The notes under the pieces: model-generated | Seen by the model: only the letters and a program-made list of their open reading frames with translations | Database searches by the model: none | What the model was told of the DNA's origin: nothing | Position numbers and translations under genes: made by a program | Assembly: GCA_937860195.1 (NCBI GenBank) | Contig: CALMBN010000176.1 | Coordinates: 1-17,473 of the forward strand | Length of the DNA stretch: 17,473 bases | Direction of reading: 5' to 3' | Origin: an uncultured Novosphingobium sp. | GTDB taxonomy: Bacteria; Pseudomonadota; Alphaproteobacteria; Sphingomonadales; Sphingomonadaceae | Shown: in pieces, positions 2,368 to 11,157 of the stretch | How the letters are laid out: each line of letters begins with the position of its first letter | Numbering within the stretch: position 1 is the first letter of the stretch

Positions 2368-3975
2368 TCAATTCTTCACCAGATCCGCCGCCAGCGCCTC
2401 GGCCACCTTTATCCCGTCAACCGCCGCCGACAAAATCCCCCCGGCATAGCCAGCGCCCTCGCCTGCCGGGTACAGTCCCTTGGTGCCGAGCGACTGGAAG
2501 TCGGCCCCGCGCGTAATCCGGACCGGGCTGGAGGTTCGCGTTTCGACCCCGGTCATCACCACATCGGGATGATCATAGCCCGGCATCTGCCGCCCGAACA
2601 CCGGCAGCGCCTCGCGGATAGCACCCAGCACAAACGGCGGCAGGCACTCGGCCAGATCGGTCAGCGTCACGCCGGGTTTGTAACTCGGCATGATCGAGCC
2701 AAACGCGCTGCCAGTTTTACCAGCCAGAAAATCGCCGACCTTCTGCCCCGGCGCGTGATAGTTCGATCCGCCCGCGACATAGGCTTGGGCTTCCAGCCGT
2801 CGCTGCAATTCCACGCCCGCCAGCGGCCCGCCGGGAAAATCGCGTTCCGGGCTGATATCAACCACCAGCCCCGAATTGGCGTTGAATTCGGCGCGCGAAT
2901 ACTGGCTCATCCCGTTGGTGACGACCCGGCCTGCTTCGGATGTAGCGGCGACCACCCGCCCGCCGGGGCACATACAGAACGAATAGACCGAACGGCCGTT
3001 GCTGGCCTTGTGCGCCAGTGCATAGCTGGCCGGGCCAAGCACCGGATGGCCCGCGTTCGCGCCATAGCGGGCCCGGTCAATCCAGCCCTGCGGGTGTTCG
3101 ATCCGCACGCCGATGGCAAACGGCTTGGCCTCAAGAAACACGCCGCGTTCGAGCAGTACCTCAAACGTATCGCGGGCCGAATGCCCTACTGCCAGCACCA
3201 CGTGCGATGCGGGCATCAGTTCGCCAGTCGATAGCCGAAGCCCGGTCAACCGGCCCTGTTCAATCACGAAATCATCGACCCGCGTGCCGAACCGGTATTC
3301 GCCGCCCAGCGCCTCAATCGTCTCGCGCATACGCATCACCATGGTGACAAGACGAAACGTGCCGACGTGGGGGTGCGCCTCGGTCAGGATATCATTCGGC
3401 GCACCAGCACGCACGAATTCGGTCAGCACCTTGCGCGACAAATGGCGCGGATCCTTGATCCGGGAATAGAGCTTGCCGTCAGAGAATGTGCCCGCGCCGC
3501 CCTCGCCAAACTGGGCATTGCTTTCGGGTTCAAGCACCCCGCGCCGCCACAGCCCCCAGGTGTCCTTGGTTCGCTCGCGCACCGCCTTGCCGCGCTCGAT
3601 GATGATCGGTTTCAGGCCCATTTCGGCCAGCACCAACGCCGCCAGCAGCCCGCATGGCCCGGCCCCGATCACCACCGGGCGCTGGCCGCTCCATCCAGCG
3701 GCTGCCTGCACCGGCGGGTGATAGGCAGTATCGGGGGTGGGGCGAACCTGCGGATCCTCGGCATGGGCCGCCAGTACCGCCACCTCGTCATGAACGGCCA
3801 CATCGACGGAATAGACCAGCAGGATCGCCCCGCGCTTGCGCGCATCGTTCCCGCGCCGGGCCAAGGTGCAGCGCAGCAAGTCCGCAGGCGCAATCCCCAG
3901 CCGAGCGCAGACCGCTGCCTCCAGCGCCTCGGGCGGATGGTCAAGCGGCAGGGTCAGGTTGGACAGGCGGATCAT
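2368..3975 (-). CDS. COG2509-type FAD-dependent dehydrogenase, uncharacterised
   Basis: A 535-residue predicted cytoplasmic flavoprotein of the uncharacterised COG2509 FAD-dehydrogenase group. The N-terminal ~70 residues form a small domain that is not flavin-binding (R-L-G-I-A-P-A-D-L-L-R with a later KRGAILLVYSVDV strand), as is usual in this family. The dinucleotide-binding motif VVIGAGPCGLLAAL is at residues 101-114 with the ribose-binding acidic residue E127 in IIIERG, followed by the family block ESNAQFGEGGAGTFSDGKL. The C-terminal FAD segment reads GLYPAGEGAGYAGGI and SAAVDGIKVAEAL. ATG 3975 is chosen over the ORF-maximal start (4026) because family N-termini begin here and because the ATG overlaps the AraC stop as ATGA (4 bp), implying translational coupling to the regulator gene. 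The reaction is unknown. The coupling raises the possibility that it belongs to the regulated module, which is inference. Confidence 0.87.
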   Translation of the reverse strand: MIRLSNLTLPLDHPPEALEAAVCARLGIAPADLLRCTLARRGNDARKRGAILLVYSVDVAVHDEVAVLAAHAEDPQVRPTPDTAYHPPVQAAAGWSGQRPVVIGAGPCGLLAALVLAEMGLKPIIIERGKAVRERTKDTWGLWRRGVLEPESNAQFGEGGAGTFSDGKLYSRIKDPRHLSRKVLTEFVRAGAPNDILTEAHPHVGTFRLVTMVMRMRETIEALGGEYRFGTRVDDFVIEQGRLTGLRLSTGELMPASHVVLAVGHSARDTFEVLLERGVFLEAKPFAIGVRIEHPQGWIDRARYGANAGHPVLGPASYALAHKASNGRSVYSFCMCPGGRVVAATSEAGRVVTNGMSQYSRAEFNANSGLVVDISPERDFPGGPLAGVELQRRLEAQAYVAGGSNYHAPGQKVGDFLAGKTGSAFGSIMPSYKPGVTLTDLAECLPPFVLGAIREALPVFGRQMPGYDHPDVVMTGVETRTSSPVRITRGADFQSLGTKGLYPAGEGAGYAGGILSAAVDGIKVAEALAADLVKN

Positions 3976-5000
3976 GGTTGCCGCCCTAGTCGCTGGCCGG
4001 ATGTTGGGAAAGCTGCTTCCCGCCAAGCCTGTGGCGGCTTGCCGAAATAGCCTTTGAACCAGCGGACAAAGGCGCTGGGATTTGCATAGCCCAAGTGATC
4101 GGCGATACGTCCGACAGCAAGCTGCGGATCAGCCAGATAGGATTGCGCCAGCTCGGCTCGCAGTTCGGCAAGCAAGACCGAAAAGCTGGTGCGTTCGCGT
4201 TCGAGCAAGCGCTGGAGACTGCGTTCACTGGTGTCCAACGCCTGAGCGCAGGTAGGCAGACTTGCCCGGCCCAATGGGAGCAACAGAATCATGGTCGAAC
4301 GCAACCGTTCCATCGGTTCGCGGTGCTGGGGTGCAGGCAAGGCATCAAGCAGTCGGCGTAACTGATCGGCTAGCGATGTTTGTGCGTTGGGGTTGATCCG
4401 GTCCAGATCGCTGCTGGGGCACGTAAAGCCGTCGTAGTATTCGTCAAAGTTCAATCTGCAGCCGAAAAATCGGCGATGGCTGGCTAGGTCGATTGGTCGC
4501 TGGTGGGTAAAACTGACCTGTTGCGGGTGCCAGTGTTCACCTGCGATCAGCCGGAATATCTGAACTACTGCGGCAACTGCCAGCTCTTTTAGCTGGCGGG
4601 CGTCAGCGTCTGGAAACGACAGGCGGCAACGCACCAACGCTTGGTCATCCCGTTCTTCGACGGCGGTATGCAGCGCCTCGGTAAGCAGATGGCGATACTG
4701 CTCGGCGGTCTCAAGCGCAGCCCGGGGGGTTGGTTGCTGGCTCAAGACCAGCCCGGACAAACCGAGGTGACCGATCTGGCGCCGGAAAGCCATTTGCAGG
4801 CCGATATCCTGGCGCCCGCTTCGCCGCGCGGCTCCTTCCAGCAAGGCGGCGACCCGCTCCGCCGGTATCAGCAAACCTTCATCACCCAATACAGCCGGAG
4901 AAAGGCCGGCTGCACGTAGTTCTGCCAGCGGATCAAATCCGCACTCAAGGCCGAGTTCGGGAAAATCTGATAACAGTGCGGCGCGAACTTCAGCTGTCAT
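3972..5000 (-). CDS. AraC-family transcriptional regulator with Arabinose_bd-type N-terminal domain
   Basis: A DNA-binding regulator of about 342 residues. The N-terminal ~190 residues match the PF12625-type ligand domain seen in OruR/ArgR-like AraC proteins (G-L-L-I-P-A-E-R-V-A-A-L-L followed later by RRQIGHLGLSG and RFFGCRLNFDEYYDG). The C-terminal ~95 residues carry the two helix-turn-helix units: CAQALDTSERSLQRLLER, and GRIADHLGYANPSAFVRWFKGYFGKPPQAWR, the conserved AraC signature. The start is ambiguous. TTG 5036 gives 12 extra residues but would place the 19-bp tandem repeats inside the coding sequence, so ATG 5000 is preferred even though no strong ribosome-binding site is visible. The gene diverges from the cupin/TauD/hydrolase/MFS operon and overlaps the downstream flavoprotein gene by 4 bp. 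It probably activates the divergent operon in response to the operon's substrate (inference from arrangement). Confidence 0.9.
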   Translation of the reverse strand: MTAEVRAALLSDFPELGLECGFDPLAELRAAGLSPAVLGDEGLLIPAERVAALLEGAARRSGRQDIGLQMAFRRQIGHLGLSGLVLSQQPTPRAALETAEQYRHLLTEALHTAVEERDDQALVRCRLSFPDADARQLKELAVAAVVQIFRLIAGEHWHPQQVSFTHQRPIDLASHRRFFGCRLNFDEYYDGFTCPSSDLDRINPNAQTSLADQLRRLLDALPAPQHREPMERLRSTMILLLPLGRASLPTCAQALDTSERSLQRLLERERTSFSVLLAELRAELAQSYLADPQLAVGRIADHLGYANPSAFVRWFKGYFGKPPQAWREAAFPTSGQRLGRQP

Positions 5001-5038
5001 GGCGTAGAATGATAACGATATGGCGTATAATGGCAATG
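4999..5038. promoter_or_regulatory. Tandem 19-bp direct repeats, candidate AraC-type operator
   Basis: ATGGCGTAGAATGATAACG at 4999-5017 and ATGGCGTATAATGGCAATG at 5020-5038 agree at 15 of 19 positions and start exactly 21 bp apart, i.e. on the same DNA face two turns apart. Direct half-sites at about 21-bp spacing are the classical AraC-family arrangement (araI1/I2). They sit at the 5' end of the AraC-type gene and 90-130 bp upstream of the divergent cupin gene. No convincing -35/-10 pair could be assigned. Operator function is inferred. Confidence 0.6.
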
Positions 5039-5127
5039 ACAGATCGTCATGTTCAGCGCAGTCTTAGGCTAAGCAATAAAGGCAATGGTCCGTTCAGGCG
5101 GAGCCAGGCCAGCCGGGAGAGATGCCA

Positions 5128-5607
5128 ATGACCTATTATTCCGACTCCGTAGGTGCAGCGATGATTGATGTCGCCGCCCTGCCGTGGATCCCTTTCCTGC
5201 CTTATTCGGACCAGCTGCAGCTCAAATTGATCAAGCTCAATCCGGTGAATGGCGAATGGACTTCATTGCTGAAGGTTCCAGCTGGGATGGTAATGCCAAA
5301 ACACCATCATGCGGGGACGGTTCATGTTTATACGATCCAGGGCAGCTGGCGCTATCTGGAGCACGACTGGATCGCGCGTCCCGGTAGCTTCGTGTTCGAA
5401 ACCGCGGCCTCGTCACACACTCCGGTCGCCGAACCGGGTGAAGATGTGATCACGCTCAACATTGTGGTTGGCGACTGGAACGTTCTCGATGAAAGCGGCT
5501 CAATTCTCGCAGTTGAAAACTGGAAGTCGATGCTGAAGCGCTACATTGATTTTTGCGCGGCCGAAGGAATCGAGCCGGTCGATATCACCAGCATGGCGGG
5601 CAATTGA
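5128..5607 (+). CDS. Cupin dioxygenase, 2,4'-dihydroxyacetophenone dioxygenase / ChrR-like family
   Basis: A 159-residue single-domain cupin resembling the group that includes 2,4'-dihydroxyacetophenone dioxygenase and acetylacetone-cleaving Dke1, enzymes that use a non-haem metal and O2 to break C-C bonds in ketones. Cupin motif 1 is GMVMPKHHHAGTVHVY (residues 53-68): metal ligands H59 and H61 are present, but the usual motif Glu is replaced by H66. Motif 2 is RPGSFVFETAASSHTP, supplying H97. This fits the three-histidine centre of that group. Two ATGs compete: 5122 is too close to the GGGAGAG at 5114-5120, whereas 5128 has proper spacing. It is the first gene of the operon divergent from the AraC gene, followed after 67 bp by the TauD-like gene. 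The metal site supports an oxygenase, but an anti-sigma (ChrR) type sensor fold or an isomerase role cannot be excluded from sequence alone. Confidence 0.82.
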   Translation: MTYYSDSVGAAMIDVAALPWIPFLPYSDQLQLKLIKLNPVNGEWTSLLKVPAGMVMPKHHHAGTVHVYTIQGSWRYLEHDWIARPGSFVFETAASSHTPVAEPGEDVITLNIVVGDWNVLDESGSILAVENWKSMLKRYIDFCAAEGIEPVDITSMAGN

Positions 5608-5625
5608 GCGCTGGCTAACACGCTT

Positions 5626-5645
5626 TCCGGACCGCAAGGACCGGA
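5626..5645 (+). other. GNRA-capped stem-loop in the cupin-TauD spacer
   Basis: The 20 bases starting TCCGGACC and ending GGACCGGA can fold into 5 bp, one A-A mismatch, 2 more bp and a GCAA tetraloop. It lies 19 bp after the cupin stop and about 18 bp before the ribosome-binding site of the TauD-like gene. No T-tract follows, so termination is unlikely. A role in mRNA processing or differential stability is speculative. Confidence 0.4.
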
Positions 5646-5674
5646 GCAGATATATCAGTTAGAGGAGAGGGATT

Positions 5675-6562
5675 ATGGCAGAACTGCTTCAAACTAAGGA
5701 CTACGTTCAGTTCCGCGTTGTCCCCCGCACCCCGGTGATTGGCGGCTGGATCGAAGGCTGCAATCTGGGTGATCTGGATGATGCCGGTCTGGCCGATCTG
5801 CGCGAGGCCCTGTGGACCTATGGCGTGTTGTTCGGACGCAATCAGAACCTGCCGTTCGATGTCATGAAACGGGTTGCGCTGGGCTTTGGCGATCAGTTGG
5901 AAAAGCACACCTTTGCGCCGACCAAAGCTGATGAGGACCATCCGGAAGTGGTCGTAATCCAGCGGCTTCAGACCGAGAACGCCAAGGCTACTACTGACCT
6001 GTGGCATCACGATGTGACCGCGCGCAAGCACCCCAACATCATGTCGATCCTTCAGGCCGAGCAGGTCCCGTTCGGGGCTGATACGATGTGGGCCAGCATG
6101 AGCGCCGCCTATGAGCGCCTGCCTGCTGCGCTCAAGACACTGTTCTCCGGGATCGAGGTGGAGCACGATTCGCTTTATCTGATGCTGCGTCATGATTTTG
6201 GCGATCCGGCAATCATCGAACGGATCATGGGAAGCCGCGAGCACGCGGTGCATCCAGCAGTGATCCGCCACCATGCCACCGGCAAGCCGTGCCTGTTTGT
6301 CGGCAATGCCTATGTCCAGCGGGTCAAAGGATACGAAACCGAGCTGTCCGAGCCGCTGATCAAGCTGGCCAATGAAATGTCGAAGATTCCCGAGATCCAG
6401 GTCCGGCACCAATGGGAGCCGGGCGACGTGGCGCTGTGGGACAATTTCGGCACCACCCACTACGGCGTCTCGGCCGACATCGGCACCCAGCTGCGGCGGC
6501 TCCACCGGGTTGCGAGCTGGTCGGAAAAGGTTGCGCCAACAGCGTGGTCAGCCGCCGCGTGA
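5675..6562 (+). CDS. TauD/TfdA-family Fe(II)/2-oxoglutarate-dependent dioxygenase
   Basis: A 295-residue oxygenase that, by family, couples decarboxylation of 2-oxoglutarate to hydroxylation of a substrate, often releasing a leaving group (as with taurine, 2,4-D or alkyl sulfates). The Fe(II) facial triad is visible: WHHDVT gives H111 and D113, and TTHYG gives H262. Arginines R274/R275 in QLRRLHR are placed to bind the 2-oxoglutarate carboxylate. The N-terminal VIGGWIEGCNL and the WTYGVLFGRNQNL block are typical TauD/TfdA features. Length matches the family. The start is well supported by AGGAGAGG at 5663-5670. Its stop overlaps the GTG start of the hydrolase gene. The true substrate is unknown. 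Lacking taurine or sulfonate transport neighbours, taurine is unlikely; an organic acid or ether handled by the module is inferred. Confidence 0.9.
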   Translation: MAELLQTKDYVQFRVVPRTPVIGGWIEGCNLGDLDDAGLADLREALWTYGVLFGRNQNLPFDVMKRVALGFGDQLEKHTFAPTKADEDHPEVVVIQRLQTENAKATTDLWHHDVTARKHPNIMSILQAEQVPFGADTMWASMSAAYERLPAALKTLFSGIEVEHDSLYLMLRHDFGDPAIIERIMGSREHAVHPAVIRHHATGKPCLFVGNAYVQRVKGYETELSEPLIKLANEMSKIPEIQVRHQWEPGDVALWDNFGTTHYGVSADIGTQLRRLHRVASWSEKVAPTAWSAAA

Positions 6563-7560
6563 CCGACTGGAACGATCCCGGCAGCTTTGCGCATCACACG
6601 ATCGAGATCGAAGGCCTGCCCATCCATTACGTCGAAGCGGGAAATGGGCCGCTGGTGCTGTTGCTCCACGGGTTCCCCTACACCTGGTTCGAATGGCGCC
6701 ATCAGATCGGCCCGCTGGCTGAGGCGGGCTACCGGGTGGTAGCGCCCGATATTCGGGGCTTTGGGCAGAGCGGGAAGCCGGCGCGCACGCAAGACTACAC
6801 AATGCTGCACAATGCGGGCGATGTCGCTGGATTAGTGGCCGCGCTCGGCGAACCAGGTGCGGTGCTGGCCGGGCATGATCTGGGGGCGTGGGTTGCCGCA
6901 GCTGCGGTCCGGCTCAGGCCAGACCTGTTCCGCGCACTTGCGATCCTCAGCACTCCGGTTGGTCAGCGCGAAGCGGCACGCCCAAGTTTGGGTTGGGAGC
7001 GCATTGAGCGCGAACGCGGCGGAAAAATGCACCATCACTATTTCCAGGAACCGGGCCGGGCGGAACGCGAGCTGGATGCAGACATCGCCAGTTCGCTGCG
7101 CGGGATCTACCACGCAATCTCGGGCGATGCGCGTGGGGCTGAGCGTTGGCGGCTGTTGACCCGTCCCGGTGAGACCATCTGCGACACGATGCCAGACCCC
7201 GGGCCAGAGCGCCTGCCGGCATGGCTACCGCAGCGTGTTCTGGACGAGTATGTCCGGCAATACTCAAAAAACGGGTTCGCGCCGCCGCTGGCGCATTATC
7301 GCTGCCGTGAATTGACCTGGGAACTCACCACTTCATGGTCCGGGCAGAAAATTACCTGCCCCAGTATGTTCATTGGCGGCGATGCCGATCCGGCGCTCGA
7401 CCTGATCCGCGCGCAGTATGATGCGCTTGAGCATACCTACACCGACCTGCGGACCAAGGCCTTGCTTCCAGGCATCGGACACGGTGCCCCGGAGGAGGCT
7501 CCACACCTGGTCACCGAGGCGCTATTGCAGTTCCTTTCGGGACTGGGAGACGGTGGATGA
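6559..7560 (+). CDS. Alpha/beta hydrolase with Asp nucleophile (epoxide hydrolase / dehalogenase type)
   Basis: A 333-residue cytoplasmic alpha/beta-hydrolase. The oxyanion-hole motif HGFP is at residues 37-40. The nucleophile elbow is AGHDLGAW with D107, not Ser, which points to the epoxide hydrolase/haloalkane or haloacetate dehalogenase branch that works through an ester intermediate. The catalytic base is probably H308 in LPGIGHGAPEEAP, and the acid D275 or D277 in FIGGDADPALD. The cap contains YFQEPGRAE (Y161) and LAHYR (Y247), positions where epoxide hydrolases carry the ring-opening tyrosines, so epoxide hydrolase is favoured over dehalogenase. The GTG start at 6559 overlaps the TauD stop as GTGA. 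A longer GTG start at 6544 is possible. It ends 8 bp inside the MFS gene. Tight coupling suggests it acts on the product of an upstream oxygenase or prepares its substrate (inference). Confidence 0.88.
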   Translation: MTDWNDPGSFAHHTIEIEGLPIHYVEAGNGPLVLLLHGFPYTWFEWRHQIGPLAEAGYRVVAPDIRGFGQSGKPARTQDYTMLHNAGDVAGLVAALGEPGAVLAGHDLGAWVAAAAVRLRPDLFRALAILSTPVGQREAARPSLGWERIERERGGKMHHHYFQEPGRAERELDADIASSLRGIYHAISGDARGAERWRLLTRPGETICDTMPDPGPERLPAWLPQRVLDEYVRQYSKNGFAPPLAHYRCRELTWELTTSWSGQKITCPSMFIGGDADPALDLIRAQYDALEHTYTDLRTKALLPGIGHGAPEEAPHLVTEALLQFLSGLGDGG

Positions 7561-8818
7561 CAGAACCAGCGCGTTCATGATCAGTTCCGCAGGAGAACGC
7601 CGCACGCCCTGGGGACTAGTGGTCTTTCTGCTGGCGCTTCACATTCTTAACCAGATTGACCGGCAATTGGTCAGCGCCTTTGCCGCCGATATCATCCGCG
7701 ATCTGGATTTGAGCCGCGGCCAGTTTGCGCTGATCGCGGGCCTCGCGTTCTCGAGCGTCTATGCTTTCGCTGCGCTGCTGGCAGGGGTGCTGGCCGATCG
7801 GATCGGGCGGGTTCCGGTTCTGGCCACCGGGGTCGGCATCTGGAGCCTGTTCACTGTGCTCGCCGGCATGGCGCAAGGGTTCTGGACCTTGCTGGCCGCG
7901 CGGCCGTTTGTTGCTGCGGGAGAGGCCACGCTGGTTCCGACCGCCACCAATGTCATCCTCTCGCAGACCCCAGACCGGCACAAGGCAGCAGCACTGGGGC
8001 TGTTTTTTGCGGGAATTCCGTTGGGCATCGGTGGAGGTTTTCTGATTGCCGGGCTGCTGGGACCACTGCTGGGATGGCGGGGCACCTTCGTTGCCATGGG
8101 GCTATTGGGTCTGGTTGCGCTGTTCGCGGTGACCCGGCTGAAAGATGATCCGACAGTATCCAGCGATAAACTCACCGTCTTGGGCGACCTGTCCGACCTG
8201 TGGGCGGCATTCAGAGTCAACCCGCGCCTGCTCTATGCTTCGCTGGCGATGATCGTCGTCCATTGTCACGTCGCGACCAATCCGTTCGTCCAGCTCTGGC
8301 TGGTCGGCGAAAAGGGCCTTGATCCGGCTCACGCCGCCCGGACCTATGGCCTGATGTTCGTCGTCTTCGGATTGATCGGAACCTTCGGCTCGGGGGTTCT
8401 GGGGGATTGGGCGAAGCGGCGGTATGGCTGGGACCGCGCGATCACGGTATTTGGAACGCTGCTGCTGCTCGCACCTTTGCTGGTGCTCTACCGGCTCGCA
8501 CCGGGCGGTTCCTGGCTTCTGCTGATCGGCATGGCCGGATCGATCCTGTTCATGACCGTGATTTACGGCCCGCTGTTTGCGGTGATCGAGGAAGAACTTC
8601 CGCAGCGGCTCAAGGCCACGTCGACCGGGTTCAATATTCTGGCACTGAACATCTTTGCCATCGGCGGCGTTGCCTTGGCCGTGGGCTATGCCAGCGATTT
8701 CCTCGCCCGGGCAGGCGCGGCCCATAGCTGGACCTGGCCGCTGCTGGGGGCCGATATGCTGGCGCTTTTGGCGATTCCGCTGATCGGCTTGGCAGCGCGC
8801 AGTCCGGCCAGACCCTAA
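7553..8818 (+). CDS. MFS transporter (Spinster-like), last gene of the operon
   Basis: A 421-residue inner-membrane transporter of the major facilitator superfamily. Hydrophobic segments alternate over the whole length, consistent with 12 helices. MFS motif A between helices 2 and 3 is visible as GVLADRIGRVPVL (residues 78-90), and helix 1 carries HILNQIDRQLVSAF, typical of the Spinster-like group of sphingomonad transporters. GTG 7553 is chosen because GGGAGA at 7544-7549 precedes it and the downstream ATG 7577 has no ribosome-binding site. This overlaps the hydrolase gene by 8 bp, so translation is probably coupled. Substrate is unknown; by position it imports the compound metabolised by the three enzymes, or exports a toxic product. 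The TAA stop overlaps the ftsK stop on the other strand, leaving no space for a conventional terminator. Confidence 0.9.
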   Translation: MDDRTSAFMISSAGERRTPWGLVVFLLALHILNQIDRQLVSAFAADIIRDLDLSRGQFALIAGLAFSSVYAFAALLAGVLADRIGRVPVLATGVGIWSLFTVLAGMAQGFWTLLAARPFVAAGEATLVPTATNVILSQTPDRHKAAALGLFFAGIPLGIGGGFLIAGLLGPLLGWRGTFVAMGLLGLVALFAVTRLKDDPTVSSDKLTVLGDLSDLWAAFRVNPRLLYASLAMIVVHCHVATNPFVQLWLVGEKGLDPAHAARTYGLMFVVFGLIGTFGSGVLGDWAKRRYGWDRAITVFGTLLLLAPLLVLYRLAPGGSWLLLIGMAGSILFMTVIYGPLFAVIEEELPQRLKATSTGFNILALNIFAIGGVALAVGYASDFLARAGAAHSWTWPLLGADMLALLAIPLIGLAARSPARP

Positions 8819-11157
8819 AGCGGGCTGCCATCCTTGTCCCGGTAGATGTCCCGCCGTCCAACATGGTTGGCCGGACCGACAAAGCCGTCGCCTTCCATCC
8901 GCTCGACCCATTTGGCCGCAGTATTATAGCCAACGCCGAGCTGGCGTTGCAGCCATGAAGCACTGGCTTTCTGGCTTTCAAACACGATCTGGCAGGCCTG
9001 GCGGTATTTGCGCTCGTCCGGATTGTCGCTGGCGGTGGCATCCAGATCGTCGAAGCCAAAGCCGCCGTCTTCTGGTTCTTCGGTGACGCTATCGACATAT
9101 TCCGGGCTGCCCTGTGCACGCCAGAAATCGGCGACGCTTTCAACCTCCTCGTCGCTGACGAATGGCCCGTGGACCCGCATGACCGGCTGGGTATTGGGTT
9201 TATACAGCATGTCGCCCTTGCCCAGCAGCTGCTCGGCGCCTTGCTCGCCCAGAATGGTCCGGCTGTCGATCCGGCTGGTTACAGCAAAGCTGATCCGGGT
9301 CGGCAGGTTGGCCTTGATCACCCCGGTGATGACATCAACCGAGGGCCGCTGGGTGGCCATGATCAGGTGGATACCCGCAGCGCGGCTCTTTTGCGACAGG
9401 CGCTGGATCAGCACTTCGATTTCCTTGCCGACAGTGACCATCAAATCGGCCAGCTCGTCGACGATCACCACGATCTGCGGCAGCGGCTGATAATCAAGCT
9501 GCTGGTCTTCGTAGAGTTCCTCGCCGGTATCAGGATCAAATCCGATCGCGATCCGGCGGCCCAATGGCTTGCCCTTGGCCGCGGCGGTGCGGACCTTTTC
9601 GTTGAAGCCGGTCAGGTTGCGAACCGAAAGCTCGCTCATCATCCGATAGCGCCGCTCCATCTCCTCAACCGCCCACTTCAGCGCGCGGACGGCTTTGCCC
9701 GGCTCGGTCACCACCGGGGAGAGCAAGTGCGGGATATCGTCGTAGCTCTTGAGCTCTAGCACCTTGGGATCGACCAGGATCAGACGGCACTGCGCCGGGG
9801 TAAGCCGGTAGAGCAGCGAAAGCAGGATCGTGTTGAGCCCGACCGACTTGCCCGAGCCAGTGGTGCCAGCAACCAGCAGGTGCGGCATGGTCGCCAGGTC
9901 GGCGACGATCGGTTCGCCTGCGATGTCCTTGCCGAGGATGATCGGCAGTGCGGCCTTCGAGGCTGCGAACTGTTCGCAGGCAACCAGTTCCTTGAAGCTG
10001 ACCATCTGGCGGTTGGCATTGGGCAGTTCGATCCCCATCACGGTGCGCCCGGGGATCGAGGACACGCGCGCCGAAATCGCACTCATATTGCGAGCGATAT
10101 CGTCGGCGAGGCCGATCACCCGGCTGGCCTTGATCCCTGGAGCCGGTTCAAGCTCGTACATCGTGACGACTGGCCCGGTCCGGACCGCGTCGATCGTGCC
10201 TTTGACATTGAAATCATCGAGCACGGTTTCGAGCAGGCGGGCATTGCGCTCCAACGCCAGCTTGTCGACCTTGGGCACGGAATTGGGCGCAGGGTCGTTG
10301 AGCAGATCGAGGCCGGGCAGTTCAAAGCTGTCAAACAGATCACCCTGACGGCTTTTGTTCGAAAGCTGGGCGGGCCTGGCGGCGTTGGCCGGGTCGGTGA
10401 TCTCCGGAGCCTTGCGCGGCTCGCCGAACTGGACCGGGGCGGGGCTGCGCTCGCGCTTGGCGCGGGCGACCGGACTACTATCTGAGAGTCCGGCCGGCAG
10501 CGCTGCGCGGCGTGTTAGAAAGCCGGGCAGGGTAAACAGGCTGCCCCAGTCGATCGCAAAGACCCGTCCGGCGATGATCGCTCCGCCCGCCAGGCTCAGC
10601 AGGCCCGCACCAAAGGTGAAGATCCACTGAAAGGCCTCGGGCAATTTGTCCGCGAAATAGCCGATTCCGCCAGCGCCGAGCAGGCCTGCAATCCCGCCCC
10701 AACCAGCCGGCATGTCGCTATCAACCTCAACTGCCAAAGCAATCGGAGTGGCGATCAGCACCATCGCGAATATCAGCAAGCCGATTGGCCGCCACCACGC
10801 GTGGCCGGCATGCGGCAAGTCCTGATTCTCCTCCTCGACCATCGACCAAAGCCCGCGCGCCATGACGTAAAGCATCGGCAGCAGCAGAACCGCAGTCCAT
10901 CCGAACAGGAACAGTGCACGTTCCGCCATCCAGGCCCCGGACCCGCCCATCCAGTTCTTGGCGGGCCCCGCCGCGGCGGTCGAAACCGAAGGATCGGTTT
11001 GGTGATAAGACATCAACGCGAACGCCAGAAACACCGTACCTGCCAACAAAGCCAAGGCCCCGCCGATCTCCGCAGAGCGCAGCAGTGCACGTTTCATCGC
11101 CGCGCGCCAATCGACCCGCGAGCCGCGGTGGTTGGCTGATGCCGGACGTGTTGCCAT
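8815..11157 (-). CDS. ftsK: DNA translocase FtsK
   Basis: A 780-residue divisome ATPase that pumps DNA during chromosome segregation and activates XerCD at dif. The N-terminus carries four to five hydrophobic helices (roughly residues 31-51, 81-101, 123-143, 153-168, 178-200), anchoring it at the septum. A Pro/Ala-rich linker of moderate length follows (about 205-290), then the alpha domain. The motor has Walker A GTTGSGKS at 431-438 and Walker B QIVVIVDELADLM near 561-573. The gamma winged-helix domain that reads KOPS sites lies at the C-terminus (RQACQIVFESQKASASWLQ and later GDGFVGPANHVGRRDI). ATG 11157 is chosen because CTCCCCT at 11162-11168 gives a good AGGGGAG ribosome-binding site, though the frame stays open to 11229. 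It is co-oriented with and 25 bp downstream of the ThiE-like gene. Confidence 0.96.
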   Translation of the reverse strand: MATRPASANHRGSRVDWRAAMKRALLRSAEIGGALALLAGTVFLAFALMSYHQTDPSVSTAAAGPAKNWMGGSGAWMAERALFLFGWTAVLLLPMLYVMARGLWSMVEEENQDLPHAGHAWWRPIGLLIFAMVLIATPIALAVEVDSDMPAGWGGIAGLLGAGGIGYFADKLPEAFQWIFTFGAGLLSLAGGAIIAGRVFAIDWGSLFTLPGFLTRRAALPAGLSDSSPVARAKRERSPAPVQFGEPRKAPEITDPANAARPAQLSNKSRQGDLFDSFELPGLDLLNDPAPNSVPKVDKLALERNARLLETVLDDFNVKGTIDAVRTGPVVTMYELEPAPGIKASRVIGLADDIARNMSAISARVSSIPGRTVMGIELPNANRQMVSFKELVACEQFAASKAALPIILGKDIAGEPIVADLATMPHLLVAGTTGSGKSVGLNTILLSLLYRLTPAQCRLILVDPKVLELKSYDDIPHLLSPVVTEPGKAVRALKWAVEEMERRYRMMSELSVRNLTGFNEKVRTAAAKGKPLGRRIAIGFDPDTGEELYEDQQLDYQPLPQIVVIVDELADLMVTVGKEIEVLIQRLSQKSRAAGIHLIMATQRPSVDVITGVIKANLPTRISFAVTSRIDSRTILGEQGAEQLLGKGDMLYKPNTQPVMRVHGPFVSDEEVESVADFWRAQGSPEYVDSVTEEPEDGGFGFDDLDATASDNPDERKYRQACQIVFESQKASASWLQRQLGVGYNTAAKWVERMEGDGFVGPANHVGRRDIYRDKDGSPL

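Follow-up and report, generated by a model that had tools for sequence, protein, structure and literature searches.

Closest Described Relatives and the Locus

Solved relatives exist for all three enzymes encoded at the locus described here, which occupies positions 3972 to 8818 of a 17,473-nucleotide contig (CALMBN010000176.1, hereafter the window) from an uncultured Novosphingobium sp. It comprises genes for an AraC-type regulator, a cupin dioxygenase-like protein, an Fe(II)/2-oxoglutarate oxygenase of the TauD/TfdA family, an alpha/beta hydrolase and an MFS transporter. The cupin belongs to the superfamily of 2,4'-dihydroxyacetophenone dioxygenase (DAD) and Dke1. For DAD of Alcaligenes sp. 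4HAP, one source names His76, His78 and His114, the invariant Tyr93, Glu108 and Trp61 near the iron, and Asp63 (PMC4219425). In the case of the oxygenase, another source gives Tyr73, Asp94 and Asn95 as the residues of TauD that contact the taurine amine; AtsK and Rv3406 have Val or Ile at Tyr73, Ala at Asp94 and Tyr at Phe159, and keep Asn95 (PMC3675115). A study on Novosphingobium reports tauD in all strains studied, no taurine transport system, and 15 tauD copies in strain AP12 (PMC5443232). The hydrolase is related to the soluble epoxide hydrolases 6unw and EphA (5cw2).

In our reading, to which we assign a probability of about 0.6, the locus is a catabolic module linked to an AraC regulator and directed at a small organic compound; it consists of a regulator, an importer, two oxygenases and a hydrolase. 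This reading is based on gene order, catalytic residues, the conserved association of the genes and repeats with a 21-bp period at the divergent promoter, all drawn from sequence. The original prediction of such a module, in which an importer and a hydrolase with an Asp nucleophile accompany two distinct non-haem iron oxygenases, was supported, and the catalytic residues are kept. It had also stated that no named pathway with this exact gene set is known; searches of an open-access library brought up neither a paper describing the set nor a characterised pathway of that order, although one may exist elsewhere. The module is a new combination of known enzyme kinds and not a new kind of system. 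It ties one TauD paralogue to a DAD-like cupin, an epoxide-hydrolase-type enzyme and a beta-keto-acid cleavage enzyme (BKACE), and yields a testable short list of substrates. The links to BKACE, and possibly to sulfate chemistry, are new.

Organization of the Locus

The map of open reading frames placed the five genes at the coordinates claimed earlier, and their families were confirmed by Pfam. The regulator gene (3972..5036, minus strand) diverges from the plus-strand operon, and its product matches Arabinose_bd and HTH_18, in agreement with the ligand-binding N-terminus that had been predicted. Its start is probably the ATG ending at 5000 and not the TTG at 5036; the divergent gap would therefore be ~121-127 bp. 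The cupin gene (5122..5607, plus strand; PF12973, Cupin_7) probably starts at 5128 rather than at 5122, because relatives begin with an MTFY/MTYY-like sequence at that point, as judged by eye. The tight junctions proposed for the operon were borne out by reading the DNA. There are 67 bp between the cupin stop at 5607 and the start of the TauD-family gene (5675..6562, plus strand; PF02668; product TauD-A), whose stop at 6562 overlaps by 4 bp with the GTG at 6559 of the hydrolase gene (6559..7560, plus strand; Abhydrolase_1; product ABH-A). The stop of the latter at 7560 overlaps by 8 bp with the GTG at 7553 of the transporter gene (7553..8818, plus strand; PF07690, MFS_1), for which ATG 7577 is an alternative start. 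The transporter is perhaps of the organic-anion type; its best NCBIfam matches, TIGR00893 and TIGR00895, are both far under cut-off. The host genome (G000) is a 2.3-Mb assembly of 359 contigs, 71% complete, from the same family as Chakrabartia (G050).

Catalytic Residues of the Three Enzymes

The solved structure nearest to the cupin is 3ebr, an uncharacterised protein (2.7e-54), and it is far closer than DAD (5bpx, 3.3e-17); the match to the acetylacetone-cleaving enzyme 3bal is weak (4.8e-6). Residues were compared on the DAD chain 4p9g with a numbering offset of 21 derived in this analysis. His61, His63 and His99 of the window cupin align to the three iron ligands of DAD, all of which are kept, and Tyr78, Glu93 and Trp46 align to Tyr93, Glu108 and Trp61. 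Where DAD has Asp63, the window cupin has Ser48; of the 11 module cupins aligned, ten have Ser or Thr at this position and one (L062) has Val. The window cupin also differs from DAD in being embedded with a TauD and a hydrolase. In locus L068, a hydrolase and a DAD-like cupin are fused in a single open reading frame of 481 aa (8331-9776); the fused hydrolase is without the aligned acid Asp, and that copy may therefore differ.

In TauD-A, His111, Asp113, His262, Arg274, Arg278 and His78 are kept in the alignment, and the iron and 2-oxoglutarate ligands are intact. Hand-counting in the alignment places Ala81, Thr106 and Thr107 at Tyr73, Asp94 and Asn95 of E. coli TauD, and Met170 at the Phe159 position. 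AtsK (1oih) and Rv3406 (4ffa) share with TauD-A the TauD/TfdA family, the H-X-D...H motif, both arginines and a conserved His at the anion site, but they match it less strongly (7.5e-27 and 4.4e-27) than PlaO1, RdpA and TauD do, and their Asn95 and Tyr-at-159 equivalents are replaced by Thr and Met. TauD-A thus fits neither the taurine-amine set nor the AtsK/Rv3406 pattern. Use of taurine by TauD-A was rejected, as the amine-binding residues differ and the protein scores 159 bits against the taurine dioxygenase equivalog NF007104 (NCBIfam), which has a cut-off of 313.

The hydrolase (best match 6unw, 6.1e-68) keeps the full soluble epoxide hydrolase set, namely HGFP, the nucleophile Asp107, the lid residues Tyr161 and Tyr247, the acid Asp277 and His308. 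It shares these features with 6unw and EphA but has Leu in place of the Trp that follows the nucleophile and Gly in place of the Trp that follows the catalytic His. In haloalkane dehalogenases, the Asp nucleophile is followed by a Trp that binds halide. The window protein has Leu108 at this position, and six ABH-A relatives (L011, L013, L016, L057, L061 and L062) likewise have Leu, while Trp is present in a distant L015 match and in a second hydrolase type, ABH-B. Of the earlier label "epoxide hydrolase/dehalogenase-type", the first half therefore fits the predicted active site with both lid tyrosines; a haloalkane dehalogenase is less likely, because Leu occupies the Trp position, and the NCBIfam dehalogenase models are far under cut-off.

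Conservation of the Module

A search of other genomes for the gene neighbourhood, which the original prediction had called for, revealed cupin, TauD and hydrolase genes together with an AraC gene in 12 loci (the window, L011-L017, L054, L061, L062 and L068). They span alpha-, beta- and gammaproteobacteria and include plasmids of P. aeruginosa H15 (L061) and Paraburkholderia terrae (L062); the L068 genome is of the same phylum as the window host. The Chakrabartia locus L011 has the same coordinates as L007 and G050 and was counted once. The control set consisted of 37 other loci with cupin relatives, and TauD was near the cupin in none of them. For 30 of the 37, the flank extends to only ~1.5 kb, and three (L055, L063 and L069) entered the set after their absence of TauD had been seen. 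Of five plasmid cupin contexts inspected (H1, H2, H3, H8 and H9), two have TauD and the other three belong to this control. The contrast between 12 loci and 0/37 argues for more than a chance neighbourhood, and a strain-specific oddity was rejected.

The genes themselves are sparsely distributed. The cupin occurs in 5/298 genomes of the family (E <= 1e-20) and TauD-A in 6/298 (E <= 1e-60), the window's genome included in both counts. Cupin relatives were present in 43/385 genomes of the class (E <= 1e-15), all at no more than 43% identity except the window's own, and in 4/398 genomes of the phylum (E <= 1e-33). A scan of named genomes gave nine cupin loci, seven of them at 72% identity or more, and each of these seven has a divergent AraC, TauD, cupin and alpha/beta hydrolase; in L017 the contig ends within the hydrolase gene. 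Among the plasmids of the collection, the same two records rank highest for the cupin and for the hydrolase. Coincidences of metagenome contig size between protein clusters, taken over the 45, 56 and 34 top-ranked rows of the respective protein lists, numbered six for cupin-hydrolase, seven for TauD-hydrolase and one for cupin-TauD, with shift-null means of 0.15-0.20; they weakly support the association.

No locus other than the window was found to have the five genes in exactly this order, and what recurs of the predicted gene set is AraC, TauD, cupin and hydrolase. Judged from the gene orders compared, these four form the conserved core, in which the TauD and hydrolase types are exchangeable and the MFS gene is optional. 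The Chakrabartia locus (AraC / TauD-A, MFS, TauD-B, cupin, ABH-B, ABH-A) has all five genes plus a second TauD and a second hydrolase. L016 has AraC, TauD-A, an MFS remnant, cupin and ABH-A in an order differing from that of the window, and L013 reads AraC / split MFS, TauD-B, cupin, ABH-B and an apparently broken ABH-A. TauD and hydrolase are of type A in the window and L016, and of type B in L012, L014, L015, L017, L054 and L068, with both types in L011; in L061 and L062 a third TauD type is paired with ABH-A. In the TauD tree, type A (100/99) and type B (97/99) form separate clades.

Partner Operon with BKACE

In Chakrabartia, the module is adjoined by genes for quinone oxidoreductase, TauD, BKACE, MFS, YeiH and a TonB receptor. 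Operons of this partner type were found on the Novosphingobium ES2-1 (p2), Azoarcus KH32C, Tsukamurella, Rhodococcus gordoniae and Streptomyces NBC_00147 plasmids. The first four of these clusters, with quinone oxidoreductase, TauD, BKACE and MFS or small hydrolase genes, resemble the module in having TauD and MFS, and AraC in three of four (none is listed for Azoarcus), but they carry BKACE and show no cupin or epoxide-hydrolase-type match in their stretches. The window's own genome has such an operon (AraC / quinone oxidoreductase, TauD, BKACE, MFS) on contig C82 (L078).

The BKACE subfamily was detected in 15/298 genomes of the family (E <= 1e-100). It is present in all four family genomes with a cupin at 56% or more (G000, G050, G218 and G261), with a hypergeometric value of 4.2e-6, which is uncorrected for kinship and not fully independent because G000 and G218 share one genus; G150, whose cupin is at 38%, is the only cupin genome of the family outside the 15. 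L068 carries TauD, the hydrolase-cupin fusion, TctC, YeiH, BKACE and SDR in succession on one strand, with no match to the quinone oxidoreductase in this stretch. In a congener (G1033), the chromosomal site that the operon occupies in the window, between ftsK and an FAD gene (L108, 1624-7238), holds AraC / BKACE, SDR and MFS in place of cupin, TauD, hydrolase and MFS. The MFS protein there is 73% identical to that of the window, and its BKACE and SDR are 68% and 54% identical to those of L068; no convincing match to the cupin, TauD or hydrolase was found at this site. Among ten FAD-gene loci in the genus, AraC lies beside the FAD gene (within ~1.5 kb) only in the window and G1033. Five other genus genomes, opened further, have no ftsK in the stretch and so gave no comparison of the site. 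Both operons seem to serve one pathway, the second being tied to the first, and we take the syntenic swap in G1033 as the strongest sign of this.

Beside the C82 operon (L078:2-5502), a SulP-type transporter, a rhodanese/FAD protein, a persulfide-dioxygenase-like MBL-fold protein and an ArsR-type regulator were recognised by eye.

Proposed Function

In the proposed scheme, the AraC regulator would sense the compound and turn on the operon, and the MFS protein would import it. TauD, with 2-oxoglutarate and O2, would hydroxylate a carbon, so that a leaving group is released or a reactive oxygen function is made; perhaps it desulfates. The epoxide-hydrolase-type enzyme would add water, and the cupin would use O2 to split a C-C bond beside a carbonyl, in the manner of DAD and Dke1, to yield carboxylates. 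The partner operon, with BKACE and SDR or quinone oxidoreductase, would then convert the resulting beta-keto acid with acetyl-CoA. This sequence of steps is a guess.

Several observations weigh against the module reading. AraC and TauD are not divergently arranged in L062 and are separated by an SBF transporter gene in L068, and the AraC of L061 is only 24% identical. Four of the six family genomes with TauD-A (L057-L060) are without a cupin at E <= 1e-20, and the cupin occurs without a nearby TauD in L055, L063 and L069. A route from epoxide to diol to ketol would require a dehydrogenase, which is absent from the window operon. The shared genus behind the BKACE statistic counts on the same side.

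Possible Substrates and Alternative Explanations

Tentatively, and with rather low probability, the substrate can be specified as an organosulfur compound, in the first place a sulfate ester, on which TauD would act like the type II alkylsulfatase AtsK. It would hydroxylate the sulfate-bearing carbon to release sulfate and a carbonyl, and the hydrolase, cupin and BKACE would dismantle the skeleton. That the compound may bear a sulfate is suggested by two related gene sets of other bacteria, which adjoin sulfate-removing enzymes. Both cupin relatives at 55-56% identity that are without TauD (in stretches of 18-19 kb) directly adjoin a type I sulfatase. In L055 these genes encode an FGE-domain protein, a sulfatase with a CSPTR motif and the cupin; in L069 they encode the cupin, a sulfatase, an SDR and the anaerobic sulfatase maturase TIGR03942 (484 bits, cut-off 349). 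The L069 sulfatase reads by eye as a Ser-type enzyme (SSATR), a motif not caught by the pattern used, which required Pro. The two genomes have 2 and 9 PF00884 matches, so chance adjacency is small, and among 91 sequences compared, overlapping loci included, only the L055 and L069 sites match those sulfatases or maturases. However, the FGE domain PF03781 also occurs in non-maturases, and no NCBIfam name is over cut-off for the L055 protein; in L063 (48%), the remaining cupin locus without TauD, no match to these sulfatases was found over 18 kb.

In G1014, a partner operon including TauD lies beside genes for an SdsA-type alkylsulfatase (PF14863, PF14864) and a 3-oxoacid CoA-transferase, ~20 kb from the cupin; the 13 other partner-operon loci, by contrast, have no match to these sulfatases in the examined stretch. 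A YeiH-type protein (PF03601, annotated "putative sulfate exporter") is encoded in the operon region of L011, L068, L070, L074 and L090. Against this, the two YeiH proteins scored reached 160 and 170 bits, below the TIGR00698 cut-off of 233, and relatives (E <= 1e-40) are common. YeiH as a strict partner was not upheld, since such relatives occur in 14/17 genomes. TauD-A keeps the His and Arg aligned to the sulfonate site of TauD, but these residues are not diagnostic, and its mismatch with the AtsK/Rv3406 and taurine patterns counts against a sulfate or sulfonate substrate. No PF00884 or PF14863 protein was found in the 71% complete G000 genome; G218, which has TauD-B, has 8 and 3, and replacement of sulfatase by TauD is therefore not strict.

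Taken to its full extent, this line of evidence would describe a two-operon pathway through which sphingomonads and other bacteria use a sulfated or sulfonated compound as carbon source, which we regard as doubtful. In it, a 2-oxoglutarate oxygenase would replace the sulfatase, the epoxide-hydrolase-type enzyme and the DAD-like cupin would break the skeleton, BKACE would yield acetoacetate, and a YeiH-type protein would export sulfate in some hosts. If TauD does remove sulfate here, tauD genes of this kind would be linked to organosulfate turnover.

Catabolism of lignin-derived or plant aryl ketones, with TauD or the hydrolase trimming the side chain and the cupin acting as a true DAD on an alpha-hydroxyketone, is unlikely. 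It would agree with the retention of most DAD active-site residues. The nearest lead in the literature is a perhaps related cluster of four genes in Novosphingobium MBES04, headed by a DAD-like gene, whose inducers are the phenylpropanone GHP and 2,4'-dihydroxyacetophenone (PMC10866074). However, the other three genes of that cluster are called hypothetical, and MBES04 is not among the nine loci of the named-genome scan, which finds close relatives only. The replacement of Asp63 in the module cupins argues against a true DAD, and no ring-cleavage gene was recognised by eye among the open reading frames of the window.

That the genes are a loose, fast-shuffling set of oxygenases under similar AraC regulators, with no shared pathway and with neighbours marking recruitment hot-spots, is improbable: TauD-A does occur alone with AraC, with the hydrolase only, or with MFS beside leucine-degradation-type genes (by eye), and several loci hold extra or broken TauD copies, but the hydrolase-cupin fusion, the 12-locus association against 0/37 controls and the syntenic swap in G1033 speak for a catabolic module.

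Regulator and Promoter Repeats

The window regulator groups with that of L012 in the AraC tree (99/97) and, less firmly, with those of six more loci with type-B TauD (82/98). It stands apart from the TauD-A-linked regulators of L016, L057, L059 and L060, which group together (100/99). The window operon therefore looks like a hybrid, in which TauD-A is combined with a regulator of the group found at type-B loci.

Two direct repeats with a period of 21 bp at the 5' end of the regulator gene (4996..5038, no strand assigned) are a candidate operator of the AraC regulator. Over the 16 bp compared they have 3 mismatches, and 0/300 shuffles equalled them. The best repeat spacing is 21 bp in 14/15 promoter regions (20-23 allowed); individually, only five of the 15 (window, L012, L011, L057 and L061) beat 95% of shuffles. 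The partner operon of the same genome (L078) also has a repeat of 21-bp period. In the G1033 locus the best spacing is again 21, but 24% of shuffles equal it. A search for operators by shared k-mers gave none above shuffles except one 18-mer (2 loci, null maximum 1).

Other Features of the Loci

Transposase-like genes, recognised by eye, and decaying copies were seen beside the module at L013:5673-7029, L013:9003-10082, L015:13265-14017, L016:2623-3237 and L016:5189-6579. The decaying copies comprise a split MFS, an apparently broken ABH-A, a split TauD and an MFS remnant. In G228 (L058:7686-14938), TauD-A and MFS genes are flanked by an acyl-CoA dehydrogenase and a leucine-degradation-type carboxylase, as read by eye. 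Beside the module of L068 (956-5214) is a cluster with acyl-CoA dehydrogenase and alpha/beta hydrolase genes, in which an AMP ligase, a flavin reductase and a protein resembling 2,5-dihydroxypyridine dioxygenase (no Pfam match) were noted by eye. At positions 4000-6500 of the window, the G+C content is 0.54-0.60 in the AraC, cupin and TauD genes against 0.63-0.65 in the flanking genes; recent acquisition of this part could explain the lower value.

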